64,000 nucleotides of DNA from Physcomitrium patens (Eukaryota > Streptophyta > Bryopsida > Funariales > Funariaceae): assembly GCF_000002425.4 (NCBI RefSeq), contig NC_037257.1, positions 13,515,232 through 13,579,231 on the forward strand, read 5' to 3'. The notes below the pieces were generated by a model that worked only from the letters and a program-made list of their open reading frames with translations, had not been told where the DNA came from and did not search any database. Shown piece by piece: positions 1,213-49,122 of the stretch. A program made the position numbers and the translations under genes. Position 1 is the stretch's first letter; the number at the start of each line of letters is the position of its first letter.

Positions 1213-4200
1213 TTAGTGACTCTTCGGCGTCCACATACTTTGGGGTTTCTTCACATTGGGATGGACGAAGTTCCTCGCTGGTTTCCACGCAACACACAAA
1301 AACGCAATCGATGCAAAACCCACTACGAATCCCACCACCAAACCAGGAACAGCAAATAGATCAGTGAAGGACAAGTCTCCAGAATCCGACTGTGCTGCGT
1401 AACAAGCGTATTGAATCGGATCTAGTGGCGGGCCGCACAGCCCTTTGTTCCCAGGTAACCAGCTTGAATTAGAAAATGACTGCAAAGTTCCTCCAGAGGG
1501 TATCGCACCAGATAGTGAGTTGTTTGCAAGAAAAAGCGTTGCCAAATTGGAGATCTTTATGAAGGACTGCGGAATGCTGCCGTTAAGTCGATTGTTGGAA
1601 AGATCCAGGAATTGGAGTTGAGTAAGGGCACCCATATTCGTTGGTATTTCACCTTCAAACTGGTTCCTTGACAGATCCAGAGACTTCATCTTCACAAGTT
1701 TGGTGATATCGGTCGGGATTACGCCCGAGAGGTTGTTGCGCGACAACTGCATGGAGATAACCCAGTCAAGGGTGGTGGAGTACGTTACATGGGCGCCTGC
1801 AACCTCGATGGTCACACTCGGAATGTAACTTGATGAGGATCCGTCCGAGCTGATATTAAGGTTGTTGGAAGATTCGTCGATGAACCCCCGAAGGTTGTCG
1901 AAGTAGGCAGACAACTGTCCGGAGAAGCTGTTGTTCTTCAGGTCCAGCAACTGTAGTTTCGGAAGGGTCCAAACCCACGATGGGATTGAGCCATGGAGAT
2001 TGTTGCTCCCAAACAGCATAACTTTTAGAGACGTCAACCTTTTTACGTCAAAAGTTGCAGGAAGTGTGCCAGTCAGCTCGTTCGAGGTGAAATCCACCGC
2101 CGTGAAGTTGTTGGTTGCGTTGAGGGTTGCGAGGGATGCGAACACATCCCCAGCCATGAGATTGTTGCTAAGCGACACCGATTCCAAGTTGGTCAACTTG
2201 CTCATATCAAGAACAAAGTCTCCAGAAAGGTTGTTGCTTGCAAGGAATATTGTTTCCGCAGAGACTAAATTTCGAAAGGAAGATGGTATGGCCCCGGTTA
2301 GTTGATTTTTAGAGAGATCAAGCAATCGAAGGACGCTGCAATTGCCGAGACTGTCAGGGATCACATCCGCTAGATTGTTATTGGACAACATTAGTATTTT
2401 TAGTCCAGAGCAATTTCCAAGAGAGGCTGGTATGGTTCCGTTGTGTGTATTGTTAAATAGTACAAGGTTTTGCAACCGCGTGCAGTTTCCAAGTGATGCT
2501 GGAATCTCGCCGGAAATTCGTGTGTCATAAGCTACCAAATTTTCCAGTTTCTGCAGCCGTCCCAACTCCTCCGGTATTATTCCAGTCAAATGTGGATTTT
2601 CTTGCACATGCAGTTGCTGCAAATTTGGACAGTTCCCAAGCATCACAGGGATCGTCCCCGTTAGGTTGTTGTTTTGAAAGTAGAGAATTTCCATGTCAGA
2701 CCAATTTGAACAAAAGCTTGCAGGTATACTACCAGTAAGCTTGTTGTGGTCAACCTGTAAATTCATCAATTTCGGGCTCTTGCTGAAAGCCTCAGGGATG
2801 ACGCCCGTCAACTTATTCCAGCTAACGCCGACGTTCTGCAGAAGCGGGCAATTTGCAAGAGATGCCGGAATTTCACCCGTGAAATTGTTCCCCGATACAA
2901 ATAGGTGCGTCAAGTGCGAACAGTTTGGCCAAAAGTACCTTGGAAGTGGGCCGGTGAGATGATTGTTCTCTCCGTGAATCAGCCCCATAGCCGAGCAGTT
3001 CTCTAGAAAATCAATCTGCCCTTCAATGTCGTTATTTTGGAAGTAAAGAACAGACAGCTTCTGCAAATTCCCAAACCCCATTGGAATTGTTCCGTTTATC
3101 TTGTTGAACCCGACCAGAAACCCCTGCAACTGGGGACAGTTGGCAAACCCAGTCGGGATCGGCCCTGTTAGCTTGTTGTTATTTACAGAAAAGCTTCGAA
3201 GGTTGGAGCAGTTTGAGCCAAAGGTGTCAGGTATGGTGCCATTAAAGTTGTTATGCATGCCCAGAAAATTCTGCAGATTACCCAAGGTTCCAAACTCTGG
3301 CTCAATTCCACCTTCCAACCCATTTGAAGACACATCAAGGTCCACCAAATTCCTGCATTGCGCCAACTGAGGCCACAATTTACCTGTGAGATTGTTGGCA
3401 CCGACATCCAGCCTCTCCAGCGATTTACAGGATGCAAGTTGCGTCGGGATAAAGCCCGTCAGGTAATTGTCGTGCAATCTTAAATTCTTCAGTTGCTTCA
3501 GATTCCCCAACTCTGCAGGAATTGCTCCACTTAACCCGTTTGCCTTAAGCTGCAGGTTCTCTAAGGCAGAGAGGTTTCCGATTCCCATAGGAATATCGCC
3601 CACCAGATTATTCTCTGACAGATCCAAGCTAACCAGCAAAGACAGCTTCACCAGTCCTCCAGGAATTCCGCCTGTCAGGTTGTTCATACCAAGGTCGAGG
3701 CTGACTAATGAGGAGAGGTTGCTCAATTCTGATGGAATATCACCCGTTAGGTTATTCCCGGACAGATCGAGGCTCCTCAACTCGGTGAGCTTTGCAAGTT
3801 CTGCAGGGATACTACCAGTAAGATTATTCCCTGACAGATTGAGACCAACCAACATGGAGAGGGTCCCCAGCTCTTCGGGAATGCTTCCGCGTAAAAAGTG
3901 ATTCGACAGCGTCAGGTTTCGCAGCACGGTGAGCCCCGAGATGTTCGGCGAGATTCCGCCCCTCAAACTTGCGTTGAATCTGCCTGCAGCGGCATAACCA
4001 ACACATACTCCACTCTTCAGATTCTAGTTTGATTTCCGAACTCCAGCTCCAAACATGGGACCAATCGATACCATCGGCACACATACCTGTTAGGTACAAG
4101 TGCACTACTCGAGGATTGGTACCATTGGTGCATGTGACGCCGCCCCAGTCGCACACATCTGGATTCAAGGTCAGGTTCCAGCTATGGAGGATACCAGCAG

Positions 4201-12733: not shown

Positions 12734-14503
12734 TCAATTAGCTATCAATCCTAATGCCTTACTCAACTTGTTGTGTCTTTCTCTAACTAAAGCTTTTGTC
12801 AATAAATCAGCCAACATGTCTTTGGTTTCACAATACATCATATCAATAACCTCCATTTCTATCTTCTCTCTTATGAAATGATGCTGAATATCAATGTGCT
12901 TAGTTCTTGCATGATGCTTTGGATTCTTTGCAAAAGTAAGACATCCTTGATTGTCACACCTCAATGGAGTGGCCTCCAATTGCACAAGTCCAATATCTTC
13001 CAATAACAACCTCAACCAAATTGCCTCCATTACTCCATGACTTGCTGCCATATACTCCGCCTCCATTGTGGACCTTGCAATGGTTGGTTGTCTCTTGCAA
13101 TTCCAAGATATGGCTCCCACTCTAACAAAGAATACATAGCCCGTTGTTGACCTTCTATCGTTTGAATCTCCAGTCCAATCCGCATCACAATATCCATGTA
13201 ATACAATATTATCTCCTCCAAGACATAGTTTGAGGTTCAAAGAGCCTTTCAAGTACCTCATGATTCTCTTAATGGTTGCCCAATGCATAGGACCTGGTTT
13301 TCCTATGTGTTGACTTACAACACTTACTACAAATGCAAGATCCATCCTTATGCCTACCATTGCATACATGAGTGAGTCTACTGCTGCCTTGTATGGTATG
13401 CCTTGCATTTGATGCTCAACTTCAGCATACTCCTCATCCGTGAGCTTCATCAACTTCAAGTTGGCCTCCAAAGGAGTTCCAATGGGCTTGCAATCTCCCA
13501 TGTTGAATCGTTTCAACACTTCTTCAATGTACTTGCTTTGGCTCAATGTGATGGTCTTTGATTCTCTACTTCTTGTGAATTCCACACCCAAATAATAATG
13601 GAGCTCTCCCAAATCACTCATCTCAAACTCTCTCTCCAATTTCTTCTTCAACCAATCCAATCTTACCATGGTGTTGCTTAAGATGATTAAATCATCTACA
13701 TAGAGGATCACAACCAGCAAAAAGTCCTTGGCTTGCAATACATACAAAGAATGGTCAGCTTCACTCCTAACAAAACCTTCGTTCACAAAGAATGAATCAA
13801 TACGTTGGTACCATGCTCTTGGTGATTGCTTAAGTCCATACAATGACTTCTTCAACTTGCAAACAAGGTGGTGTTTTTCTTGTTCAATAAATCCTTGAGG
13901 TTGCTCCATGTAGATGTCTTCTTCCAATTCTACATTCAAGAATGTTGTCTTGACGTCCATTTGATGCATCTCAAGGTCCATTGATGCTCCAATTGCTACT
14001 ATGGTTCTAATGGTGGTGAACTTGGCCACGGGTGCAAATGTCTCATTAAAGTCCACTCCAGCAACTTGTGAGTAGCCTTTGGCAACCAATCCTGCCTTGT
14101 ACCTTACAACATTGTCCATAGCATCTCTCTTGGTTCTAAACACCCACTTACATCCAATTGCTGATCGATTTGGTGGAAGTGGAGTCAACTCCCATGTCTC
14201 ATTGTCCATAAGAGATTTGTATTCTTCTTGCATGGCAATCTCCCACTTCATTGCATCACCACACCTCATTGCATCAGACAAAGTCAATGGATCATCGAGA
14301 AGAGCAACATTGGCATGGTCTTCACTTACTTGTGGAAAGATGTGGTTCTTCCACCATTCACCTTGTGGTCTTCTCTCACGTGTTGGATATCTTCTTTCAT
14401 GCAAGAAGGATGAGCCTTCATGCACCTCTTGCTGCCTTGTATGGCTCATAGAGTTCTTTGTTTTATTCATTGATTGGTATTCTTCATCATTCATTCTCTT
14501 CAT
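12734..14503 (-). pseudogene. Copia reverse transcriptase and RNase H half of the polyprotein
   Basis: This 589-codon open frame holds the copia RT domain (RVT_2 type). It reads from CKWVFRTKR through KARLVAKGY-like sequence to the catalytic YVDD box at about residue 269, then the RNase H region (GYCDADWTGD, then STMEAEY) and the ADxLTKAL tail typical of copia. It is offset by one base from the upstream gag-integrase frame, so the normal single polyprotein is split by a frameshift near 14490-14503. Catalytic residues look intact, but without gag and a 5' LTR the copy cannot be autonomous. Confidence 0.88.
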
Positions 14504-16505
14504 TGTCCTTGTTGTATCTTGCTGGAATTGAAGTCTTCATAGTATTGGGCTCTTCTATCATGGCATCTTCCTCTCCTTCTTTACTTTGAGAATGCTCTTC
14601 TTCATCTTCTTGTTTGTTTGCTGGAATTGAAGATGTGTCCACAAACACACCACTACTCCCACTTGGACACATCTCCCACTTTTCACTACCACTCTTATGC
14701 TCCAAGAATTCTACATCACGATTTTTGATGATCTTTTTGGTATCTAAATACATGAGCCTATATGCCTTAGTGCCTTTACAATAATCAAGGAATATACATC
14801 TTGTTCCCTTTGCATCAAGTTTGCCTCTCATACTATCTAGAACCTTGACATATGTAATGCACCCAAAAATCCTCATGTGAGATATGCAAGGTTTGTTACC
14901 AGTCCAAGCTTCTTGGAGAGTCATTCCTTCAAGTGCACTTGTGGGACACCTATTTCTTGTATACATGGCATTAACCACAGCTTCCGCCCAGTACTCATAC
15001 CCAAGTTTTTGAGCATGAATCATACTCCTTGCCATCTCCATAATGGTGCGATTTGTTCTTTCAGCAACTTCATTTTGTTGTGGAGTGTAGGGAGTAGAGG
15101 TTTGTCTTGCAATGCCTTCATGCTTCAAAAACTCATCAAAGAGTTTGGACAAATACTCACTTCTATTGTCCGATCGTAGCACCTTAATCTTGTGCTCACA
15201 TTGCTTCTCCACAAGTGCTTTCCACTCCTTAAACTTGGCAAAACACTCACTCTTGGCCTTGATGATGTAAATCCATACCTTCCTTGAGAAGTCATCAATA
15301 AATGTGACAAAGTACCTTGCTCCACTCATAGATGGTGTCCTCATGGGTCCACAAACATCTGAATGCACAAGCTCCAGCAATTGGTTTGTTCTTATTGCAA
15401 CTCCACTAGGAAATGGTGTCATATGTTGTTTGCCTTGAATGCATCCCTCACAAGTAAGATTCATGGTAGAATGGCCAAGGTCTAAGCCACTTACTATGGA
15501 TTGAAGCTCCTTCATACTTTTGGCATTCAAATGCCCAAGTCTTTGATGCCAAATACCCACCTTGACTTCATTTGATGGAAATTCAGCAAAGGCAGCAACC
15601 TCCACTCCATTGATCCTCTTGCAATTGATAATATAGAGATTGCCATCCCTAGTCCCTTTTGCTACTTCTTTGCCTTCCATGATTCTCACAAAACATCCAT
15701 TCATGTTAAATTGCACTTTGTACCCATGAATTACAAGTTTACTCACCGAAAGGAGATTCTTCTTCATCTTTGGCACATGCAACACATCCTTGAGAGTGAT
15801 TCTCTTGCTTATGCCCTTCACCACCACCTCCACTACAATGGTGCCCATTCCAATGGCTTGTACCATACCATTATCACCTAAACAAACCTTGGTTGCTGGA
15901 ATTGGTTGATAAGTGTTAAATGAACACTTGTATGGAGTTATGTGTTTGGTACATCCGGAATCCACAATCCATTTGCTCATATCAAGCATGGAAGGAGTTT
16001 GTTTTGCCATGAATGCAAAGTCTTCACCTCCATGGTCATGAAAAGCATTGTTGGCATTCTCTCTTTCTCCTCTCTTTGCCTTGAAATAATTTCTAGCAAA
16101 ATGGCCTGGTTTTCTACAAATGTAATAAGTTTTAGGAGGATAACATTGAAAAGGGGCACTTGCCTTACTTGGTCTTGTAAATAGTGTTGATTGCTCCCCA
16201 ATAGACTCCTTTTGCTTTCTTTTGGTCACTTCATGGACTAGTCTTACCATGACATAGTCCAAAGTGAGGTCTTTCGTTGAAATGGACTCCAATGCCACAA
16301 TGAGGGAGGAATAGGAGTCCGGAAGGCTTGAGAGCAATGTCATCACAACATCTTCTTCATGTGAAGGCTTGTCAACAACATCAAGTTAGTTTGCAAGTGC
16401 TTTTACCTTATTCACATGAGCCATGAGATCTTCACCTTCTTCCATCTTCATGGTGAAGAATTTTTGCCTTGACCATAGCACATTGGAGAGATTCCTACTT
16501 TCATA
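14487..16505 (-). pseudogene. Copia gag (partial), protease and integrase half
   Basis: The open frame 16346-14487 (619 codons) continues in frame up to about 16505 through one TAA at about 16387. Order: C-terminal gag (the MTLLSSLP motif is conserved), a degraded CCHC knuckle (YYICRKPGHFARNYF, where two Cys are now Tyr), the protease-like WIVDSGCT motif, the GAG-pre-integrase HxxxGH/CxxC region (WHQRLGHLN, CEGCIQGK), and the integrase core with D in HSDVCGP, D in LRSDN and E in QQNEVAER. Both Cys-to-Tyr changes and the TAA fit C-to-T or G-to-A transitions. The N-terminal gag is missing. Confidence 0.85.
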
Positions 16506-19640: not shown

Positions 19641-19861
19641 TTAAACAATTAATGGCACCTAAAGATAAGATGATTTGACTAACTTTGAAAAAGGAAAATT
19701 ATCAAGTTCCAAAAGATAAGATGATTTGACTAACTTTGAAAAAAGAGACATGAAAAAATTGATGGAAGTTAAATAGGAGAAGAGTAACTCTTCATGTGAT
19801 AGAAAAGAATAATCTTATAATATTGAGAGTATAAACATCAAGGTGAAAACCTCTACATATG
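19641..19861 (+). pseudogene. Gag-like fragment, left half (split by the chromovirus palindrome; tentative)
   Basis: Broken plus-strand frames carry a 55-bp spaced duplication (aaagataagatgatttgact at about 19653 and 19708). It encodes a Lys-rich KDKM...LT..K motif twice. It stops exactly where the LTR begins. The plus-strand sequence just beyond the other LTR (28747 onward) also reads as gag-like, so I infer one older Ty3/gypsy copy split by insertion. No matching target-site duplication is clear (atatg versus atagc). Confidence 0.3.
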
Positions 19862-20394
19862 TGTCATGGACATACATATTTATCCTAATAATTATCTAGA
19901 TAATAAGAATAGGTAGAAGTTAGTCAAAGTAGATAAATATGATAATATCTTATAGAAAGCTTCATAGACGTTGTTTTGCCTTTATACATGTCTATAGGTA
20001 ATTGATAGGTTGAAAACTTGGCCAACAAGAAGGCCACATGTCAACATGTTGACCACTTGTAGTATAAGTTGGACATATGGTGCACACCTAAGAAACTTGC
20101 CTTACAAATTAGACATGTGTCTTGCAAATTAGATGCATATTAGAGGTCTTATAGCATGTCGCCATATAGTTCTTAATTAAGTAGTATATATAGAGGCAAG
20201 AATGAGGCCTCCTCACTCTTATCAATTCTTTTCTTGCTTTTAGTCTAATTTCAAGAGTCTTATATTTTCTAGTATTTGATGATAGCTATTCCAGTTCTTC
20301 TTTGAACATATATACTTTCTTCTATTTTGTCACTTTTTTCTTTGACACATATTCCACAAGTTTATGTATCTTCTTCTAGTTTGTGTCCTTGACA
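19862..20394 (+). repeat. Chromovirus LTR, left arm (533 bp)
   Basis: It begins TGTCATGGACATAC and ends TGTGTCCTTGACA, so the termini are inverted (TGTCAAGGACA/TGTCCTTGACA) with one substitution in the left copy. A TATATATAGAG box near 20186 could be the LTR promoter. It matches the right-arm LTR apart from that terminal substitution. It is followed by aattgacaag rather than an obvious tRNA-Met primer-binding site. Confidence 0.85.
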
Positions 20395-20572
20395 AATTGA
20401 CAAGAATACACATACAATATCAAAGCCTTGACCTTTCTTGATTAAGAGTGGATTACCCTTTTTCTTGATAAGACATAAGTATATTAGAAGTTGAAGATTA
20501 CCCTCTTTTGAATTGATATTGTTTATAGATTTTTTTTCCTTAATTCTTGAGTATCATATTTTATGAGAATAG

Positions 20573-20617
<45 letters not shown>

Positions 20618-20623
20618 CCTAAT
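20395..20623 (+). other. Chromovirus untranslated leader with (TTA)n run
   Basis: Noncoding leader between the LTR and the gag ATG. An uninterrupted (TTA)n run of about 40 bp (about 20576-20616) sits just before gag. The inverted copy has nearly the same run, slightly shorter. Confidence 0.7.
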
Positions 20624-21841
20624 ATGGCAGAGCTTGTTGAAATGAAGTGTACAATGGCTCAAATGCAAGAACAAATGAGAGAGTTAATGCTTGCAATGCA
20701 TCAATTCAATTTACCACCACAAGGAGGAACAAGATCATCAGGCAATGAAGATATAGAGATGATTGAAGTTGCTTCAACATCTATATCAAGCCATATTACT
20801 GCTCCTACAATGAAACATCGTTCAAGTTTCAAGAAACCAAAAATTGGATTGCCTAAAAAGTTTAATGGTAAAAGATCAAAGTTTTGAAGATTCATCAATC
20901 AAGTATAACTGGTAATTAAACTACAACTTCAAAGTTATCCAATTCAAGGATCTTAAGTCAAGTTTATTAGAATACTACTTTTAGATTCTACTTTATCATG
21001 GTTTTTATCATTTCTTAAATAATGTGATTCAATATTGGATAATTTAGAAGTATTTTTAGCAAAGTTTTGATCTATATATAGAAAATATGATGCAATCTAT
21101 GTTGCAACCAATAAGATTTGTATCTTGCAACAAGACAATCGATTAGTGACATTATACGCTTCACAATTTTGATAATTAGTGATAGATATCAATTGGAATG
21201 ATGCAACACTTATTAGCCAATTTCTCTATGAATTACAATATGAAGTAAAGAAATTGATCCTCAATTTACTTGATCCTCAAACATTGAGTCAAGCAATTAA
21301 CTTTACTGTGAAATGTAATAATTGAATTTTTGAGTTTTGATCTAAGAATTGCACAAGAAAACTCCAACGTTATTAGAATTCAATGATGACACCAACAACT
21401 TCTCAATCTAAATATTTGGAAGTAGAAGTCATACAAATTGATGTAGTATGTTTTAAACTTCTTACTAAACAAGAAAAGATTCATTATTATGAAGAAGATT
21501 ATGTTTATATTGTGGAGAAGCTAAGCATACTACTTAGTATTGTCCAAAGAAATGATGCAACTATAAAATGAGGAGTACTATTATCAAAGATGAAAATATG
21601 TCAAAAAATAAATTTATCCAGCTACAATAAGGATTGTACAGTTGAAATCTTCTACAATTCCTAATGAAGGTCCTATTCTCTCTTCAAAACCCTCTCTTTG
21701 TTTTACAATAGATGTACGTTTGAGATCTAATAATCACAAAGTCTCTGCCTTAATAGATTTAGGAGCCTCAACTTAATTTTTAGATGAAGAATTTGTTAAA
21801 AGTCATAATATACAGTTAGTATTAAGAACTAAATTCATATA
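20624..21841 (+). pseudogene. Chromovirus gag and protease start, left arm
   Basis: The gag N-terminus (ATG 20624, 87 codons open) has a Met/Gln-rich helical start and then the conserved KPKIGLPKKFNG motif that precedes the capsid region. A TGA at about 20885 and further stops follow. The zinc knuckle is readable in another frame near 21500-21550 (CLYCGEAKH, then a stop in place of one residue, then YCPK). The protease active-site region reads ALIDLGAST near 21749-21775, with Leu in place of the usual Thr/Ser after Asp. The inverted right arm carries the same lesions. Confidence 0.8.
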
Positions 21842-23166
21842 TGTTGTCGTATTACGTGTTGTTTGCTTAGGAATGCACCGAGCAGCTAGCTGTAGAAGGT
21901 AAGATTGTGTTTCACAAGTAGGTAAGAAATCCTAATTAATTTTGCCCATACGAGAAGAATATAATCTGAATTTCAATTCAAAAGTGCTTAAAAAACTCTT
22001 CTTAGTAGTCTTAACTATATATAAATCCCAATTACCTTATTACTTTCATATTTAAGCAATTTAGATTTTTCTTGTAAGTCCAATCTTAATCATTGAGCTT
22101 TAATAAACTACAATATCCAATCCGACCATCCACTTGATGTGGAATTTTGCATGCAATTTTCAATATAAGTCTTTTATATGCTCAAGAGTTTTTAGCCCAA
22201 TCCAACTTAAAGATTATGAAAAAACCTCCAAAAATTGTACTAATGTCACTCGGCCGCCAACTTGAAAAGTGAAGTAAAAATCCCAACAATGATTTCTCCC
22301 TTTACGACCATTAACTTTGTCTCAAAATTGGTGTGTAGCTTGATCTTCAAGTCCTTCAATACCATGCCAATTTTCACCTTAATCCAACTGATAGATCTTC
22401 AGATATCATAGAAATCCTACCCAACCTCAAACTGCCACCTTCTGAAACCCTCTTATGCTAAAATACTAGATATCTCTAAACCATATTATTAGATGACCAC
22501 AAAATTTTGTATACACTTAATACATCTAATAATCCAAATAGTTTCAAATTTTCAATCATAGATGTCACACCAATTGCATGAACTAGTCAATATTACTAGC
22601 CCTAATTATATTATATAAAATCCAAATCACTGATACAGACCTTAACTTTGAACAATAGTTTCTAATTCCTCCAAAATTCTCTCAAATCTATTCTTATGTC
22701 TCTGGAAAGAAATTTAAGCTAGCTCTCAAATCCTAACCTCCAATCTTCAAATGATTTCCTATTTTGCCCTAGGCCGTCATTTTAGTGGCCAGAGGTTTGT
22801 TTTCGACCATGTCTCACAAATGGTCAACCCCCGAATATCAATCTAACCTATCCTAAGGTGTTTTTAGCCCAAACCTACTCTCAACTTAACCTTAGTACCA
22901 ACTATACTAATTATTTTTCTTTTCTAATCTGATTTTATTAATTTATGGTCTTTCTAAAGTAGTAGAAGAGTCTCTACAACCTAGAAGGTAAAATTATTAA
23001 CTAACCTTCAACCTACTAACTATTAAGATAAAGAAATAATCTAAGAGGCTTTTATAAAAGCTATGTTTAGGTACCTCAAATTATAATTAAATTAAGATAA
23101 TTAGATATTAATTAGAAATTTAACTTTGATTATAATTTCACTATATTATCGTATTACATCACGACA
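21842..23166 (+). repeat. 1.3-kb solo-LTR-like insertion in the protease region
   Basis: This non-coding block interrupts the protease. The coding match resumes at 23167 with VEVINGRLLS-like sequence. It starts TGTTGTCGTATTACG and ends CGTATTACATCACGACA, a TG..CA-bounded unit. Its flanks are atata (21837-21841) and acgta (23167-23171), which differ by one C/T and one G/A change, consistent with a 5-bp target duplication decayed at CpG. A diverged relative sits at 30450-32168. No internal ORF or primer site is seen, hence solo-LTR-like. Confidence 0.5.
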
Positions 23167-26100
23167 ACGTAGAAGTCATAAATGGTCGTTTGTTATCTTT
23201 TGGAAATATCATTCATGAAACACTTCTTATAGATGTAGTAATAAATGGTCATAATAATTACATAATTTTTAATATAATTAGATTTATTTCTAATCTAGTG
23301 ATTTTAGGTTTATTGTGGCTAATAATATATAATTTTATGATAGATTAGATTTTTCATAAACTTGACTTTTCTTCAAACATCTCCAAGAGTTTTCTTAATC
23401 CAATAGAAAGCCATGAGTGTAGTATAGCCAAACCTGTACTTATAGGTGCAAAGGTAATTTTGCATACTACAAAAGAAAGATCGTATTTTTTTATTTACAC
23501 CACACCTATTTTAAATGATGGAAAGATTTCAAGCAAAATTCCAGGCCAATATCAAGATTTTAAAGATATTTTTGAGAAAAAAAATGCAAATATTTTCTTG
23601 GAACATCATCCATATGAATGGTCAATCAATCTTAAAGAAGAAACTAAATCGCCATTTGGTACAATCTGTAGTTTGTTACAAAATGAATTGGCTAAGCTCA
23701 ATAAGTACATTGATGAGAATTTGGCCAAAAATTTCATATGCTATTCAAAATCTTCTACAAGAGTTCCTATCTTATTTTTGAAGAAAAAAGATGGATCATT
23801 GTGAATGTGTGTGGATTATCAAGGATTCAACAAGATTACTATTAAGAATAGATATCCTTTGCCTTTGATATCTAGACTTCTTGATTAATTAAATCAAGGT
23901 AAGATCTATATAAAAATAGATCTACGAGGAGCATACAATCTGATCCGCATTAAAGAAGGAGGTAAATAGAAGATTATATTTCAAACAAGATAAAGACACT
24001 TTGAATATAATGTCATGCCTTTTAGATTCACAAATGCACCAGCTACTTTTCAACATCTTATGAATGATATTTTTTGTGAGTTTCTATATGATTTTATTGT
24101 CTATTACTTAGATGATATTTTAATCTACTCTAAGAATACAAAAGAACATAAAGTTCATGTTCGTCATATGTTACAAAAACTTAGAGATACAAGATTGTAG
24201 GCTAAGTTAAAAAAGTGTGTATTGCACACTATTCAAGTTGACTTCTTAGGATACATTATTTCAAACAATTGTATAATGATGGATCCTAAAAGAATTCACA
24301 CAATTATAGACTAGAAGATTCAAAAAGTAGTGAGAGATGTATAATGCATTTTAAATTTTTTTAATTATTATTGAATCTTCATCAAGAACTTTTTTCAAGT
24401 TGCAATGCCACTAACACGCTTAACTTGTAAAGACAAGCTTGAGTGGAGTAAAGAAGTAGAAATATTATTTGAAGCTTTGAAGAAAGCTTTTACTTCTGCA
24501 CCAATCATGCATTGTGTCAACTTCTTCAAAGTATTTTTTATGGAAACAGATGCATCTGACTTTGCCTTTGATGTAATCTTTTCACAAATAGGAGTAGATA
24601 GCAAATTTCATCTAATAGCTTTTTACTTAAGAAAATTTTTAATAATTGAGATTAATTATGAAATCCATGACAAAGAACTTCTTGCAATAGTGGATTCTTT
24701 TCAAGGATAGCATCATTATTTAGAAGGTGCTTCAAGTCAAATCATCATATATATAAATCACAAGAACCTAAAGTATTTCATATTAGCACATGGTTTGAAT
24801 CATTGCCAAGCTCATTAGAACATGTCTTTGTAAAGATTTGAGTTTAATATCACTTATCAGCTAAGAAAATAATAATGTTTGACTGATGCCCTTTTTAGAC
24901 GTTCTTATCTTATACCAAAAGAAAAAGAAGCAGAGTTTGACTAATAAAAAATAATTTTATTAAAACCAAAATAATTTCATTTTCAAGCAATGAAATCAAT
25001 ATTGACTATTGATTTGACTTTTTTCAAGCAGATCCAAACAAGTATGTCCTCAGACCTTCTTATTCATGATATTAAAAATAATTCTTCTAAGTCTCAAGAT
25101 ACTTTTAAGTTTGAGTTTAAGGAGAACCTACTCTATTTTAAAAGATACTTATATATTCCAAAAGAAGAAGCAAAATTACGTACTCTTGAAGCTTGTCACA
25201 ATTTTTCAATAACATGACATTTTGGATATAATAAGATTTTGGAGCTTATATCTAGAGATTTTTAGTGGCCTAAAATGTGGAAGGCTATTAAAGAATTTTT
25301 GTGACATGTGATATTTGTTCAAGATCAAAAACTCCTCGTCATTGATCTTATAGACTCTTCCAACCATTATTTATATCAAAACAACCATAGTCTTTTGTCT
25401 CTATGGATTTTATCATGGATCTTGTAATTTCAAGTTCATATGATTCCATATTTGTGATTGTAGATCATTTCACCAAAATGCTACATTTTGTACCATATAC
25501 AAAATCTATCTTAGGTAAAGGAATAGCTAAACTCTACCTTAATAATATCTGTTGCTTTCATGGACTACCAAAGGATATTATATCAAAGAGAAGAATAGAG
25601 TTTTTATTGAGATTTTGGAGAACTCTTTTCAAAGAATTGAAGGTGGATATAAAACTATCTTCAATGTTCCACCTTCAAATTAATGGACAAATAGAACGAA
25701 TAAATTAAGTTTTAGAGTAGTATTTGAGGTGTATCATCAAGTATCATTAAGATGATTGGATAAATCCTTTGCCATTGGTAGAGTTTGCTTACAATAATTT
25801 GATATATTCTTTTATTCAACAAACACTTTTCTTTATCAATTATGGTTATTATCCACTATTTAATACTTTTGACTTTTCAAAAGTTGATAATCTTATAGAA
25901 GAAGATGTGGCAAATTAATTGTCAAAGCTATATATAACAATCAAGGCACAATTAAAAGAAGCTCAAGATTGACAAAAAGCCAATGCAAATGTGTATTGCA
26001 AGGAACAACTTCAATTCCATATATGAAATAAGGTATGATTACTTTGTTGTAATATTAAAACTATTTGTCCTTGTGACAAGCTAGATTATTTTAAGCTTAC

Positions 26101-26430
26101 ATTATTTCCAATTTGTGAATAGATCAATCCAATTTCTTATTGATTACACCTATTAAAATCTATGAAAATCCATCTTATATTCCATGTGTCTTTACTTGAG
26201 CCAAACAAGACAATGGATATACAAAGAAGGAGACAAATGCCACCACCTCTTGTAGAAGTAGATAATAATGAAGAATTTGAGGTGGAAGAAGTCTTAGATT
26301 TAAGGTGGCCCCAAAATAGGTAAGAATATCTAGTATATTGTCATGGATATAACATTAATGAATGTATATGGCAGCCATCCAAGAATCTAGCAAATGCATC
26401 AATCAAAGTAAAATCTTTTCATCCACAACA
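23167..26430 (+). pseudogene. Chromovirus pol remnant: RT, RNase H, integrase, chromodomain
   Basis: The order is typical of Ty3/gypsy. Protease-to-RT linker (23167-23570). RT (about 23570-24330) with LFLKKKDGSL, MPFRFTNAPATFQ and the catalytic box YYLDD. RNase H (about 24400-24850) with METDASDFA. Integrase (about 25000-26150), whose core begins MDFIMDL; the catalytic SDRG-type motif has become SKRR, but the last Glu in HLQINGQIER remains. A C-terminal chromodomain (about 26268-26420; EEFEVEEVLD...EYLVYCHGY...CIWQPSKNLANA) places it among chromoviruses. More than twenty stops and several frameshifts make it non-functional. Confidence 0.85.
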
Positions 26431-26791
26431 TCTAACAAAATCAAGATGAAGAGTCAAAAAATTCTTTGCTATAAAGTAAAGCAAGCCCAACGGAGATTTC
26501 ATTCTATCTTGTATCATTATTTTTTTAGATTTTTTAGTGCTTAGGTCATAGAAAAGCAACAACCAACAGATTCAATTTAAGACCTATCATTTGTTGAGCT
26601 ACCATTTGTTGAGCAACCATTGCAACTATCACAACCTTTGAGATGACAAAATCGAGATGAAGATACTCAAAAATACCATGTTTTTCCTTGAATAGATGGA
26701 AAGATATAACACATTTAATACCATGACTTCAAAAATGATTCCGTGTATTTAGTGACACTTTTAGAGGTAAGAACCACTCTTGACGGTATTT
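26431..26791 (+). other. 3' end of the chromovirus loop, no 3' LTR
   Basis: Sequence between the chromodomain and the inverted arm. It contains a short direct repeat (accatttgttgagc, 26600-26630). A polypurine tract and 3' LTR are expected here but absent. The inverted gag-protease copy begins instead at about 26792. Confidence 0.55.
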
Positions 26792-27995
26792 CTAATTGTA
26801 TATTATGACTTTTAACAAATTCTTCATCTAAAAATTAAGTTGAGGCTCCTAAATCTATTAAGGCAGAGACTTTGTGATTATTAGATCTCAAACGTACATC
26901 TATTGTAAAACAAAGAGAGGGTTTTGAAGAGAGAATAGGACCTTCATTAGGAATTGTAGAAGATTTCAACTGTACAATCCTTATTGTAGCTGGATAAATT
27001 TATTTTTTGACATATTTTCATCTTTGATAATAGTACTCCTCATTTTATAGTTGCATCATTTCTTTGGACAATACTAAGTAGTATGCTTAGCTTCTCCACA
27101 ATATAAACATAATCTTCTTCATAATAATGAATCTTTTCTTGTTTAGTAAGAAGTTTAAAACATACTACATCAATTTGTATGACTTCTACTTCCAAATATT
27201 TAGATTGAGAAGTTGTTGGTGTCATCATTGAATTCTAATAACGTTGGAGTTTTCTTGTGCAATTCTTAGATCAAAACTCAAAAATTCAATTATTACATTT
27301 CACAGTAAAGTTAATTGCTTGACTCAATGTTTGAGGATCAAGTAAATTGAGGATCAATTTCTTTACTTCATATTGTAATTCATAGAGAAATTGGCTAATA
27401 AGTGTTGCATCATTCCAATTGATATCTATCACTAATTATCAAAATTGTGAAGCGTATAATGTCACTAATCGATTGTCTTGTTGCAAGATACAAATCTTAT
27501 TGGTTGCAACATAGATTGCATCATATTTTCTATATATAGATCAAAACTTTGCTAAAAATACTTCTAAATTATCCAATATTGAATCACATTATTTAAGAAA
27601 TGATAAAAACCATGATAAAGTAGAATCTAAAAGTAGTATTCTAATAAACTTGACTTAAGATCCTTGAATTGGATAACTTTGAAGTTGTAGTTTAATCACC
27701 AGTTATACTTGATTGATGAATCTTCAAAACTTTGATCTTTTACCATTAAACTTTTTAGGCAATCCAATTTTTGGTTTCTTGAAACTTGAACGATGTTTCA
27801 TTGTAGGAGCAGTAATATGGCTTGATATAGATGTTGAAGCAACTTCAATCATCTCTATATCTTCATTGCCTGATGATCTTGTTCCTCCTTGTGGTGGTAA
27901 ATTGAATTGATGCATTGCAAGCATTAACTCTCTCATTTGTTCTTGCATTTGAGCCATTGTACACTTCATTTCAACAAGCTCTGCCATATTAGGAC

Positions 27996-28035
<40 letters not shown>

Positions 28036-28213
28036 CTATTCTCATAAAATATGATACTCAAGAATTAAGGAAAAAAAATCTATAAACAATATCAATTCAA
28101 AAGAGGGTAATCTTCAACTTCTAATATACTTATGTCTTATCAAGAAAAAGGGTAATCCACTCTTAATCAAGAAAGGTCAAGGCTTTGATATTGTATGTGT
28201 ATTCTTGTCAATT
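26792..28213 (-). pseudogene. Inverted copy of leader, gag and protease (right arm)
   Basis: Reverse complement of about 20395-21819. The gag start (ATG at 27987), its TGA, the frame-shifted zinc knuckle near 27100 and the protease ALIDLGAST near 26845 match the left arm. Differences noted: a G for A two bases before the GTCC/ATCC upstream of gag, one G/A in a gag-internal GGTGATTA/GGTAATTA word, one near the inner end, and the triplet-run length. It ends where the left arm also diverges. Confidence 0.85.
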
Positions 28214-28746
28214 TGTCAAGGACACAAACTAGAAGAAGATACATAAACTTGTGGAATATGTGTCAAAGAAAAAAGTGACAAAATAGAAGAAAGTATATAT
28301 GTTCAAAGAAGAACTGGAATAGCTATCATCAAATACTAGAAAATATAAGACTCTTGAAATTAGACTAAAAGCAAGAAAAGAATTGATAAGAGTGAGGAGG
28401 CCTCATTCTTGCCTCTATATATACTACTTAATTAAGAACTATATGGCGACATGCTATAAGACCTCTAATATGCATCTAATTTGCAAGACACATGTCTAAT
28501 TTGTAAGGCAAGTTTCTTAGGTGTGCACCATATGTCCAACTTATACTACAAGTGGTCAACATGTTGACATGTGGCCTTCTTGTTGGCCAAGTTTTCAACC
28601 TATCAATTACCTATAGACATGTATAAAGGCAAAACAACGTCTATGAAGCTTTCTATAAGATATTATCATATTTATCTACTTTGACTAACTTCTACCTATT
28701 CTTATTATCTAGATAATTATTAGGATAAATATGTATGTCCTTGACA
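28214..28746 (-). repeat. Chromovirus LTR, right arm (533 bp, inverted)
   Basis: In minus-strand reading it begins TGTCAAGGACATAC (28746) and ends TGTCCTTGACA (28214). It is the same length as the left LTR and identical by eye except for one terminal base. The outer boundary of the palindrome coincides with this LTR end. Confidence 0.85.
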
Positions 28747-28965
28747 ATAGCAAAGACAATGAAAAAAAAGGTGAATACCAAAGAAAAGGATAATATATCA
28801 ACTTATAAACTTCAATTTGATATTGAATTTTCAATTGACATGAAAGGTATTTTAAAAGAAAGAATTTTTGATGTTAAGATTTAATTTACTTTGAAAGAAG
28901 GTCTTAGTATTGCCAAAAAAGGATTTTATTCTTTTTCTAAAGTATTAAAGATGCTTTGACTTCTT
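28747..28965 (+). pseudogene. Gag-like fragment, right half (tentative)
   Basis: A plus-strand frame begins immediately outside the LTR: AKTMKKKVNTKEKDN, then YKLQFDIEFSIDMKGILKER and FTLKEGLSIAKKGF, with one stop. The pattern (short helix, LKxxLEERI, then FTLxELLxIAKKEF) resembles a gag segment of moss and fungal Ty3/gypsy elements as I remember it. It may be the continuation of the fragment at 19641-19861. It is in the opposite orientation to the pol remnant that follows. Confidence 0.4.
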
Positions 28966-43251: not shown

Positions 43252-46200
43252 ATGGGGATTCCGTCGTTTGTGGAATCTGAGCACAGGCCGCTGGTGTTTG
43301 CGCTGAATGGACAGCGCGTGGAGCTGTCTTCGGTGGATCCAGCCACCACTCTCCTCTCGTACATTCGCAGTGAGACACCTTTCAAAGGCACCAAGCGAGG
43401 GTGTGGCGAAGGTAAAGAAATCCTTGACACAATTCCTGCTTTGTGGGTCTACTGCTTCGATGAGACCACGCAAGGGATAAGGGTGTGTTTGTTTATTTGT
43501 TTTGATGAGGAATTTGTTATGGTTTTTGTGTTCAGGTGGCTGTGGAGCATGTGTGGTAATGTTGGCGAGGTACAACCCTGTCACCAAAGAAGTCAAGGAA
43601 AGTTCCGTTAATTCGTGCTTGGTGTTACTCTGCTCCATCGACGGCTGCGCCATCACCACGACAGAAGGCTTGCGCGGCGGCGGAAACAACCTCCATGCTA
43701 TCCAGAAGCGCATCTCAGCGTTTCACGGTTCACAGTGCGGCTTCTGCACCCCCGGCATGACAATGGCCATCTACGGGTGCCTCAAGCACGATCAGCAGCA
43801 GCAACGCTCATTAACACCCGTTGGCGACAGAACTCACTCCAAACCAAGCTGCGAGAAGCTTGAGAGAGCTCTTCAAGGAAATATATGCAGGTGCACGGGA
43901 TACAGACCTCTTCTCGATGTGTGCAAATCTTTCGCATGGGATGTAGACCTTGAAGATTTGGGCCTCAACACCTGCTGGGCCGACAAATCTGGAGCGAAGG
44001 AGGAAAATTTGCCACCCTATGAACCGAATGCCGATCCCCAGTTCCCTAAGTTCCTAGTCGATGAATTAGAAGCTCGAAAGGTGCCTTCAGAGCCTACTCA
44101 AACGGAGACTTTGCAGAGCGTTGGCGAGAGGTTCAGGCACGTTGAAAGCAGCAATGAGGGGAAAAGAGAGCGTTTGTGGGTAACTGCGAGCACCTTGAAT
44201 GAATTGCGTGAGAGGTTGCACGTACTAAATCAAACCAACCAGCAGTTGAAGCTGGTGGTTGGTAATACGAGCGCTGGTATCTACAAAGACCTCAGACCAG
44301 ATGTTTTCTTGGATATTAGCCAGATACCCGAGCTCCTGACACTTCGGCGAGACGATCACGGTCTCGAAGTTGGTGCCGCCACTCGCATTGCCGAGCTTAT
44401 CGACTGCTTGGAAAGTTTTGGAGCTGGGAAATCGCCCGTGGCTGAAGGCTTAGCAGAGCATTTGAAGAAGCTTGCAGGAGGCCATGTCCGCAATTGGGGT
44501 AGTGTGGGAGGTAATCTGGTTATGGCACAAAAATTTGCGTTTGCTTCGGACCTCGCCACCATTCTCCTTGGTGCAGGGGCCTCAGCCAGGGTTGTGGACT
44601 TGGGAGGTGCTCATCCGAGTGTGGCAGAGCTTCCCTTGGATGATTTCTTAGCGAAGGGAGCACTTGGAAATAACAGTATTCTGCAATCGGTTCACATCCC
44701 TCTTGTGGCATATTCCAGGGAGGTTGTGTTCAAAACTTTCAGAGCAGCTCCGAGGCCTTATGGTAACGCGGTCTCATTTTCCAACGCCGCTTTCTTGGTC
44801 CATATTTCAAGAGAGAGGGAGGAAGTTGTGATTGAAACAGCTCGCCTAGCTTTTGGTGCATTTGGAACGAAGCATGCGATCCGGGCTTTGAAAGTAGAGG
44901 AGCTTTTAAAGAGCAAAACTTTGAGCTTATCCTTGGTGAAAGAAGCTGTGGAGGCTTTGAAGAAGGAAGTGGTTCCGCTTGAAGGGACGAGCATGAAAGA
45001 GTACCGCACAAGCCTGAATGTTGGATTTCTCTTCGACTTCCTTAATTCCCTCCTTTCCGGAGAGCCAACCGTGACTTCCACTCATCTCGTAAGCCCTCGT
45101 TAAATTCCCTAAACTCTTGCGTTGCTCCATTTCTGAAGACATACACATACATTTTTTCTAATTGTGTAGATCGATTAATCAACCTATCGAATATTTTTGT
45201 GCAGTTCCCTCACGTCGGAAAGCAAAACTTCACTCTCACCGATGACCGATTCCCTCTTTCACAACCTATAGCGAAATTCCTGTCTCAGAATCAAGCATCT
45301 GGTAAATGGACAACGCAGTTGCTCACATTTGTTGTAATTGGGTACGGTTGTGAACCGATGCTAATGGTTTATAACACTTCTCCGGGATAATGACTACCAG
45401 TAAGCGTTTGGATCTTACAGCTCAAGGAACACTGACCAAAGTGTGAGATGGTTGTGCAGGAGACGCAGTGTATGTGGACGACATCCCTTCACCTCCTCAC
45501 TGCCTACACGCTGCGTTTGTGTTGAGCTCGGAGCCTTATGCAGCCTTTGATGTTGACACCGCGGCCGCACGAGATTCAACGGGAGTAGTCACGTTCATCT
45601 CAGTAGACGACATCCCCGGAGAAAATATCGGAATAATCAACCCTTACAACGGGGCCAAAGAAATTTTATTTGCGGGTGGAATTGTGTTCTATGTTGGTCA
45701 ACCCTTAGGAGTAATGGTAAGTACTTACCCGAACTCATCTTTCACATGAATAGTGCTTTATTCGCCTTATCTGAAGCTTTCTCTCTTACCTGAAATCTGC
45801 TCCTATTCTAGAACGACCACCGCCACTACCACTGCTATCTAATCATTCTACTGTCTTGGTATGTGAATAGGTTGCAGACACATACGAGCACGCACAATTA
45901 GCCGCCGGGAAAGTGAATGTAGACTATGATACTCACAGCTTTGGAGCTCCCATAATGAATTGCGACGAGGCTGTTGCCAAGGATTCTTTTCATCCGATGA
46001 ATCCTGCGTTTGCGCCACCGCATAATCCGGTCGGGGATGCTGAGGAGAGCCTTAAAGAGGCGGACTTCAAGTCTGAGGGCATAGTAAGTTGACCGCGACA
46101 TTGATTATTCAGAAACTATTTAACAAGCAACATTTCCTGATTTGTGTTCCTTTCTATTGTAGCGCACTGTTTAGTAAACAATTTCGATCCTCTCGTGTGG

Positions 46201-49122
46201 CTGAAGGTGACGACAAAATCGCAGTATCATTTTTACATGGAAACACAAACCGCATTGGCTATTCCTGATGAGGATGACTGCATCACTGTCTACACTGCAA
46301 GCCAGGCTTTAGATTGTCTCCAACAAGTCATAGCCGGTTGCCTCTCAATTCCCTCGCACAATGTTCGTGTCATCACCCGGCGACTTGGAGGCGCTTTTGG
46401 CGGTAAAGCATTTCGTAATATGCAGGTATGAGCACGCTCTTACCCCTCATATGAGCGCTCAATCTAATGGTAGAAAGTGGACTTTTCCGACCCAAGCTTG
46501 TTTGAGCTCGAGGCAGGAATCTACTAAAATTGAAGCTGGTTATCACCAGGCCTTAGTACTGTCACGTGTTGCGAATGCTCGTTCATGCTACAATGTTATT
46601 TGCAGATAGCTGCAGCGGTTGCTGTGGCTGCCTTCAAGCTCCGAAGACCGGTCCGCGTCTCTCTTGATCGCAACACAGATATGCAGATGGTGGGGGGTCG
46701 AGCCCCAACCAAGACAAATTTTACCGTGGGGTTCACGAAGACGGGAAAAATTACTGCCTTGAAAGCCAAGACGTTGGTGGAATCTGGTTGGTTTGTAGAT
46801 AATAACGATTTCAATCCTATGCTTATAACCAGCGGTATGAAGAAGTACAATTACGGAACATTCGACTTGACTACCATACTCTGCAGAACCAACAATGTGC
46901 CCAAGACTGCCGTGCGGGCACCTGGGGATGCTGAAGGCTCCATCATCGCAGACGCTATTGTGGATCACGTAGCGTCCTGTTTGGGCATTAGTGGCAACCA
47001 AGTTCGGGATGTAAATCTCCACACCTCAGAGAGCATTGCCCTCTTTCACGGTGCGGATGCTGTGGGTGGTGCGGATGGTTTCACATTGCCTGCAATGTGG
47101 GAGCGGCTCAAGTCTCGTGCACGTATAGATGAGCGAGAGAAGGAGATTATGGAGTTTAATGCGCAGAGCAAATGGGTGAAGCGAGGCTTAGCGATGGCAT
47201 CGTGCACTTACGGTGCATTTACATTTGGAAACACTGCCACTGTGAGCATCTTCGGTGATGGTTCTATTGCTGTAGAAGTTGGTGGTGTGGAAATGGGACA
47301 GGGTTTGTATACTAAAGTGAGGCAAACCGTGGCGTACTGTCTTAGTCCCCTATGGAAGAAGGTGGGTGTTAACATGACGGTAAAATTTGACATTCGCTTA
47401 TGCACGTGAGCATTTTTTCAGCAACTGAAATTAACAACACCGATGTCACTCGTGAGCGGGCTAATTTGTCCCCTCTCTCGTGGTGATTGCAGAATAAGGA
47501 CGTCGACATGATCCCAAATATCCGGGTTCTCCAATCAGATTCTCTCAGTTTACCGAACTCATTTTGTGATGGTGGGAGTACAACGTCTGAGGGGTCATGT
47601 GCAGCTGCCCAGCAAGCGTGTGAGGTTTTAGTTCAACGCTTGCAGCCTGTGGTAGAGCAACTCGCCAAGGATAAAACTGATGGGGAAGTTTCGTGGGAGT
47701 ACCTTTGTACGATGGTATGTATTAAAAAACTACCAACACCACATTTTTCTGTTTGATTTCAGAAATTTGTCAGTTGAGGTCCCATGCCTTTGTGACCCAA
47801 ATGCACGTGAAGTATCTAGCATGCGAACATTGACAACAATTCATGAATGTCAATAGTAACAGTACCAAAGTTTTCGCAAATTGTTTCACTATTCTTGCAT
47901 TGTATGTGCAGGCCAAATTGATGCAAATTGATTTGCAGTCTCATGAGCGTTGGGTTTCTCCCATGAAACCGTACGTTTTATTTGGAGCCGGAGCAAGTGA
48001 GGTGTGATTGCTGACCTTTCTGACTTAAACCTCTAAAGTACGAGCTCACTACAAAAGTCAAGAGGAGGTTTTGGACCACATTTTAATAATTTCATGACAA
48101 TCATAACCACCAACATAAGAAGAGATTGTTAATTGACGACCAACTTAACTACCAACTTAATGGAAAGTAGGATGTTAGTGTTATGTGATCGAGATCGCAT
48201 GCATCGCAAAAGCCAAGTCTTGTCGAATACTGAGTGACTCGCTTGCACATTTGCAGGTCGAGGTTAACCTGTTAACAGGGGAAACAAGAATCTTGGCTGT
48301 GGATCTTATCTACGACTCTGGAAAAAGTATAAACGTAGCTGTTGATATCGGACAGGTGAACGAATCCTCGCCATTCCTAACATGATGTCTTTGAAGATGA
48401 TTTCAAATTCGTATAGGACCTCTCATGAAAAGGGCAATTGTTTTTATGCAGGTAGAGGGTGGCTTCGTGTTTGGTATTGGATTTGTTTTGACAGAGGATG
48501 TTGAAAGAGACGCTAAGGGAAAGCTCTTGTCTGATGGTACATGGACATACAAGCCACCTACTATGGACACAATTCCACAGAAGTTCAATGTGGAGCTCTA
48601 CAACAGCCCCGAGCACAAAGACCGTATCTTATCTTCAAAAGGTTCAGCTCCCAGACTTGCCACCTCCTTTCCAAAAATCAGCAATCTAGTTTGTGCAAAT
48701 CCATGGCCTGACCAGAGTCTATCGTCGTACATTTCAACTGGTTCACATCTAATTAATATCAATCGAGTAAACATATACATATTATTAGAATTACTGTTTT
48801 ATTGTTTTACAATTTCTGGATGTCTTCTTCACTAAAGAATTGTGAAGCAAGTGACACTCTAACTTGATGTGTAACACGTGTAACAGCGGTTGGTGAGCCT
48901 CCTCTAGTGTTAGTAGGCTCTGTGTACTCTGCGATTCGCAATGCCATCAGAGCTGCGAGGAAAGACCATCTCGGCAGTAACGCAGACAGTGATGCCTTCG
49001 AGTTCAGCCCACCTGCAACGGCAGACAAAGTGAAGAGCTTATGTGGACTTGATAATGTGGAGCACCATCTGCTATCCGCACTGAAACCATCCAAAACCAT
49101 ACCGCATGGAAAACTGGTTTGA
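43252..49122 (+). CDS. AO: Aldehyde oxidase (molybdenum hydroxylase), 12 exons
   Basis: Exons: 43252-43411, 43536-45088, 45205-45301, 45460-45716, 45871-46083, 46207-46425, 46606-47361, 47493-47714, 47912-48001, 48257-48355, 48452-48641, 48887-49122. All junctions are GT..AG and in frame, giving 1363 aa, normal for plant aldehyde oxidases. Domains: a plant-type [2Fe-2S] domain (GCGEGGCGAC across intron 1), the second cluster (QCGFCTPGM...GNICRCTGYRP), the FAD domain (LVVGNTSAG, GGNLVMAQK) and the molybdopterin domain (GGAFGGKA, RAPGDAEGS, GGVEMGQGL). The catalytic Glu sits in GEPPL across the last intron. The FFxGYR motif of xanthine dehydrogenase is missing and TFRAAPRP is present, which favours aldehyde oxidase. 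These cytosolic enzymes oxidise aldehydes to acids with O2; in seed plants some make abscisic acid from abscisic aldehyde. This protein's substrate is not known. The exon 6 acceptor (46206) is the least certain. Confidence 0.93.

Follow-up and report, generated by a model that had tools for sequence, protein, structure and literature searches.

The window, by which we mean the whole stretch of 64,000 bp of Physcomitrium patens DNA that was analyzed, contains within an AT-rich transposon island between genes a unit (19862..28746) whose two ends are near-perfect mirror images of each other. In a self-comparison of the window, positions 19862-21819 align in inverted orientation with 28746-26792 over 1,958 bp at 99.642% identity, with four mismatches and one gap. 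This is the only long inverted pair of the window; without gaps, it is recovered as two overlapping pieces, 1,247 and 751 bp long. In the AT-rich part (16-42 kb of the window), the longest exact inverted match measures 900 bp versus 18-20 bp in each of five shuffles made within 500-bp blocks; the inverted pair is far beyond chance. Both outer ends of the unit are formed by LTR termini (TGTCA... on the left, ...TGACA on the right), the two LTRs stand in opposite orientation and point inward, and the arms enclose a loop of about 5 kb that harbors a decayed pol region. The inverted duplication is genuine, arose late, and lies within a Ty3-type element that was already dead.

Read from left to right, the left arm (19862..21814, plus strand) comprises the 5' LTR, the gag region and the start of the protease region, and is continuous with pol as in related elements. 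Its LTR (19862..20394, plus strand), whose limits were taken from the 3' LTRs of relatives, runs from TGTCATGGACA to TGTCCTTGACA and has an 11-bp terminal inverted repeat. A 1.32-kb repeat has inserted into the element at 21845..23168; it is absent at the equivalent point in seven relatives, and 39 other copies, 85-89% identical, are found among those scored. The decayed pol region (23169..26460, plus strand) is followed by the start of the 3' untranslated region (26461..26796, plus strand), which breaks off some 0.2 kb short of where the 3' LTR would be expected. There the right arm begins (26797..28746, minus strand), an inverted copy of the protease, gag and 5' LTR segments that deviates from the left arm by three substitutions and one 3-bp repeat unit. 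At 28736..28746 (plus strand), where the inverted copy meets the old right boundary, stands what is probably a remnant of the original 3' LTR end (TGTCCTTGACA). The unit is flanked on the left by part of a decayed retroelement that we call D (19728..19861, plus strand), and on the right by D-type sequence in the same orientation as the left flank (28747..28930, plus strand).

Our Pfam profile scans found RT (RVT_1), RNase H (RT_RNaseH_2) and a weak integrase match (rve) as the only hits in the scanned pieces of the loop, in the order RT-RNase H-integrase that characterizes Ty3 elements. The RT and RNase H matches exceed the Pfam cut-off, and the integrase match stays below it (21.0 bits versus 32.6, E 4e-4). 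A chromodomain-like sequence can be read by eye near 26270-26460; the single piece scanned there, 26144-26320, gave no Pfam chromodomain match. Many stops break the frames, and the plus-strand stop-to-stop stretches of the unit do not exceed 151 amino acids. Direct LTRs, absent in the window element, are present in its relative L024. Searches of the window against Rfam and for tRNAs returned no match. Fungal RIP was also considered; almost every 1-kb segment has a negative RIP composite index, while CpG is depleted in the AT-rich part.

In related elements, the sequence beyond 26790 runs on through the 3' untranslated region into the 3' LTR, whereas the window element switches to the inverted arm. 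In the six relatives that align at both points (L012/L031, L013, L015, L016, L024 and L029), this inner junction falls 204-241 bp upstream of the expected start of the 3' LTR. The alignment places a CTAA common to both sides of the junction at 26792..26795, a microhomology of 4 bp, and the base that follows it is the version of the 3' untranslated region, which accounts for the mismatch at 21815. This mismatch hence belongs to the junction, and the arms proper extend over 19862-21814 and 26797-28746. The copied tract ends 30 bp before the 1.32-kb insert at 21845. An earlier note, made by eye from the letters of the sequence, had described inverted arms of about 1.95 kb with more than 99% identity, opposed LTRs whose termini form the outer ends, and a loop of about 5 kb with pol; all of this is borne out by the exact alignment and the Pfam scans. 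The limits that it gave for the arms, 19862-21819 and 26792-28746, are exact for the aligned pair and too wide for the arms proper, as they take in the CTAA microhomology. It had also proposed that in this element, which it called a chromovirus, an inverted copy of the 5' LTR-gag-protease segment replaces the 3' LTR; the replacement stands, but more than the LTR was lost given the position of the junction upstream of it.

Aligned with seven relatives, the two arms differ from each other at only 3 of 1,950 sites, versus 13.5-17.8% of sites in the other 35 pairs that can be formed among these nine sequences. The inverted copy was consequently made long after the element had died; the two arms carry the mutations of one old, dead copy, and the inverted structure is not a product of retrotransposition. 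Both arms oppose the unanimous relatives at 28 of 1,926 columns, and among the 48 matches listed for the arm (best 40 of 22,221 candidates), the closest other copy that spans its whole length reaches 85% identity. Away from the junctions, two substitutions and the 3-bp repeat unit separate the arms; the third substitution is located at the outer end. At position 20914, the left arm has an A and the right arm, together with all seven relatives, a G, so that the divergence of the arms has already begun. Two substitutions in about 1,940 bp, at the rate of 9e-9 that was used for P. patens LTRs (PMC7466625), date the inverted copy, or the last homogenization of the arms, to about 57,000 years ago (Poisson range 7,000-207,000), assuming a constant rate and no later conversion. 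At the same rate and under the same assumptions, the 9.0% divergence of the LTR pair of L024 corresponds to about 5 million years. When a query spanning the inner junction was used, none of 38 other copies crossed it, and the matches of all 38 ended within 13 bp of it (best 40 of 12,598 candidates). The unit is a one-off structure among the copies scored.

The LTRs of this family start with TGTCA(C/T)GGACA and end with TGTCC(T/G)TGACA, which together make up the 11-bp inverted repeat. Read inward, the sixth base is an A in 13 of 15 3' ends versus 1 of 30 5' ends (duplicate loci and the window locus left out; Fisher p 2e-8, with the copies treated as independent). Across the genome, 65 of 1,677 exact 5'-type LTR starts, the right arm among them, have an A at position 6. 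This base is a T in the left arm and an A in the right arm. The simplest reading of the last 6-11 bp on the right is that they remain from a 3' LTR terminus and that the inverted copy was joined to them within the terminal repeat; a single informative base, whose likelihood ratio is about 22, speaks for this 3'-type stub.

The site into which the element had inserted is irregular. Both flanks share their orientation and derive from a single decayed retroelement of the D type, and the stretch of D that lies between the flank ends measures 336-339 bp in five of eight intact D copies; the three others, with 178, 329 and 356 bp, have small insertions or deletions of their own. No target-site duplication is present at the flanks of the unit (ATATG/ATAGC). 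As only one of the two distinct family copies in which both LTR ends can be aligned has a 5-bp target-site duplication, its absence here is weak evidence. The possibility that TGACA served as a microhomology joining the LTR terminus to the flanking D sequence was considered and ruled out, since this motif occurs in none of the eight D copies, all of which read ATGG, ATGA or ATAG at the right boundary. The right edge is thus a true boundary between LTR and host. The missing target-site duplication, taken together with the approximately 337 bp of D that are lacking, implies that the insertion was not simple, or that the site was changed later; a fusion of two neighboring elements is one possible route to such an irregular site.

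We consider it most probable, at roughly 0.68, that the repair of a break copied the element's own 5' end backwards, with priming at the LTR-terminal repeat. From the arms, their late date, the two junctions and the 3'-type stub, all of which can be read from the DNA itself, we infer the following course of breakage, priming and repair. An old and decayed Ty3-type element in plus orientation would have been broken within or close to its 3' LTR. The end to the right of the break, carrying the last bases of the 3' LTR (TGTCCTTGACA), would then have annealed to the place where the element's own 5' LTR starts, with the 11-bp inverted repeat of the LTR ends providing 10 of 11 matching bases. Synthesis on the left arm (19862..21814), the presumed template, would have copied 1.94 kb of the 5' LTR-gag-protease segment in inverted orientation, and the new strand would have been joined to the element's 3' untranslated region through CTAA, so that what was left of the 3' untranslated region was replaced along with almost the entire 3' LTR. 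The pathway may have been synthesis-dependent annealing or microhomology-primed template switching, as inverted copying with short homologies at both ends is what either is expected to leave behind. P. patens is described as unusually proficient in homologous-recombination repair of breaks, and its end-joining genes, including the one for polymerase theta, are induced after breaks (PMC4990234). Several points weigh against repair of a break: the 3'-type stub depends on a single informative base; for homologous strand invasion, 11 bp that include one mismatch make a short primer; the missing target-site duplication and the missing 337 bp of D call for an extra step, be it fusion with a neighbor or a deletion; and continued gene conversion from arm to arm would also keep the arms alike.

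A clearly less probable alternative is that two members of the family, facing opposite ways, inserted independently into D at a distance of about 337 bp, that the intervening DNA was deleted, and that gene conversion homogenized the arms. Such a history would readily provide the exact LTR/host boundaries at both outer ends, without microhomology to D on the right, and would not lead one to expect a shared target-site duplication; nesting and opposite neighbors are indeed found in the relatives L027, L028 and L029. However, it requires two insertions, a deletion and the conversion of the whole remaining 1.9 kb, in copies that should have been about 15% diverged, and an A at position 6 is uncommon in 5'-type LTR starts (the 65 of 1,677 mentioned above). 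Far less probable still is that the inverted structure arose during reverse transcription, was integrated as a unit and had its arms kept alike by gene conversion. LTR termini at both ends speak for such an origin, as does arm-to-arm gene conversion, which is known in general from palindromes. Yet no target-site duplication is present, the junction does not recur in the 38 other copies scored (best 40 of 12,598 candidates), the loop shows the interruption and decay of other old copies, and the mutation load of an old insertion is common to both arms (28 of 1,926 columns). On the grounds of this shared load, the absent target-site duplication and the lack of a second copy among those scored, we rejected an origin at reverse transcription. 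We regard as equally improbable an artefact of assembly or library construction, in the form of a chimeric inverted read or a misjoined repeat. Inverted chimeras are a known type of artefact, and this was counted in its favor; on the other hand, off the junctions the arms differ by two substitutions and one repeat unit, one of these differences being explained by the relatives, the right arm stops at the host boundary where the D element continues, and a loop of 5 kb does not correspond to a simple fold-back.

Whatever its origin, the unit has features that bear on the formation of RNA. A TATA-like box is found at 20184 on the plus strand and its complement at 28412, each pointing into the unit; by eye, the TATA-like string is intact in four of seven relatives. 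Each arm keeps an LTR with an inward TATA-like box and an outside promoter would not be needed, which in this one respect strengthens the proposal of the earlier note that a promoter reading across the unit would give a hairpin transcript. Transcripts started from either side would contain both arms. Given the inward LTRs and the almost perfect pairing to be expected of arms with 99.64% identity, as the earlier note had foreseen, any transcript that crosses the unit should be double-stranded and a good substrate for Dicer. We nevertheless regard the unit as most likely a passive scar, and it is rather doubtful, although conceivable, that it would yield measurable siRNA. A locus of the Mu-killer type, whose hairpin RNA silences a whole family in trans, is brought to mind by the anatomy of the unit, by the inward TATA-like boxes in both arms, and by the most active 23-nt siRNA locus of P. 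patens, Pp23SR1, which lies between convergent LTRs (PMC2600652). The idea of a trans-silencing source for the whole family, put forward in the earlier note, is, however, weakened by the sequences of its supposed targets: of the 1,930 24-mers of the arm, just 13-60 (0.7-3.1%) have an exact match in a given relative and 210 have one in any of the seven, and these relatives are themselves decayed. Judged from these matches, family-wide silencing in trans appears unlikely, and a Mu-killer-like function for this locus is extremely improbable; the analogy is fair for the anatomy and not for the function. We also give little credence to the broader proposal that the LTR terminal repeats act as a built-in fold-back primer through which break repair in this moss repeatedly turns dead LTR elements into long double-stranded RNA loci, with near-perfect arms and two promoters facing inward, that feed siRNAs against their family.

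Comparison with known systems places the unit more precisely. Mu killer of maize is likewise a deleted and partly duplicated transposon with both outer ends derived from one element end, and with an inverted coding duplication of about 1.3 kb of mudrA versus 1.95 kb in the window unit (PMC3440606). It is, however, a DNA transposon whose silencing was shown genetically, and the hairpin proposed for it depends on transcription continuing from a neighboring gene (PMC3440606), whereas the window unit is an LTR element known from its sequence, each arm of which has an LTR. Pp23SR1, an siRNA region within nested LTR elements, resembles the unit in that its two LTRs are convergent; its inverted repeat is too poorly conserved, in the judgment of its authors, to fold into a stem-loop (PMC2600652), in contrast to the 99.6% identity of the window arms. 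DIRS-1 also has inverted LTRs around a coding region, but DIRS elements use a tyrosine recombinase, whereas the unit has a weak integrase-type match, relatives with direct LTRs and a structure that occurs once among the copies scored (PMC5633606). Tandem arrays of LTR retrotransposons are, like the unit, aberrant multi-LTR structures, yet they are direct, share internal LTRs and are attributed to single insertion events (PMC11899658). Literature searches in an open-access library listed no account of this locus, nor of any LTR element that carries its own 5' end a second time in inverted orientation.

Inverted duplicates are not foreign to this genome. An early assembly of P. patens had 6.2% of its sequence in 132,656 inverted repeats with a median identity of 79% (PMC2600652). 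In twelve 10-kb loci around the relatives and the flank repeats, we found no inverted pair of at least 150 bp above 78.2% identity, so that the window arms stand out by their identity and not by their kind. Tail-to-tail tandem Hsp70 genes have been described in P. patens (PMC5028893), and such local gene duplicates resemble the window arms in being close and in opposite orientation; they concern genes, whereas the window arms belong to a single element and have readable junctions. Among equal-scoring rows of the same genome, equal score being no more than a proxy for recent duplication and exons of one gene being counted as separate rows, close pairs of the chlorophyll-binding family are inverted rather than direct in 7 versus 0 cases within 10 kb, 13 versus 1 within 30 kb, and 18 versus 4 within 100 kb. 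A light-harvesting protein encoded in this genome matches PDB chains 8htu_U and 7xqp_a, which belong to photosystem I of P. patens, at 212 of 216 aligned residues. By eye, chalcone synthases within 30 kb form six inverted and two direct pairs. That inverted pairs outnumber direct ones among the close duplicates of both gene families suggests that the P. patens genome is biased in this way more widely, which merits a proper survey.

The value of the unit lies in being a dated example, with both junctions readable, of an LTR element that was most probably turned into an inverted-repeat locus by DNA repair and not by transposition. Should it make siRNA, one could test cleanly at this locus whether silencing in P. 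patens is seeded by near-perfect hairpins or by LTR promoters that converge.

Genome-wide, the 3'-type base (A) occupies position 6 of the terminal inverted repeat in 65 of 1,677 exact 5'-type LTR starts, a count that includes the right arm (26797-28746) of the inverted Ty3-type unit. The left-arm stretch duplicated in this reversed copy of the element's own 5' LTR-gag-protease ends 30 bp before a member of a 1.32-kb repeat family (21845-23168) in the loop and does not reach the repeat itself, which shares 85-89% identity with the 39 other copies scored, the majority of them full length.

The unit's neighbours in the window include a Copia-type element on the minus strand (12734-16385) with two long open frames of 600 and 632 aa, which overlap in different reading frames; it is far less decayed than the elements around it. 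The flanking genes encode a leucine-rich-repeat protein (1213-4020, minus strand) and, in exons at 43481-47406 on the plus strand, an enzyme of the xanthine dehydrogenase/aldehyde oxidase type.

Opposite-orientation junctions also occur elsewhere. On contig C17 (1157551-1158450; locus L056), a plus-orientation LTR start is followed by an inverted LTR and inverted 3' UTR from a different subfamily, a further tail-to-tail junction, and near position 4730 of locus L028 two diverged elements in opposite orientation meet head-to-head at one base. Among chlorophyll-binding protein and chalcone synthase genes (locus L073 and the contigs of the family searches), nearby equal-scoring copies are predominantly inverted.

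An element of the unit's own family is present on contig C15 as two mutually inverted copies (5730501-5736850 and 5786951-5793300; loci L047-L050) lying ~62 kb apart. Since their compared ends are 99.9-100% identical, the sequences point to this pair as the product of a large, recent inverted duplication.
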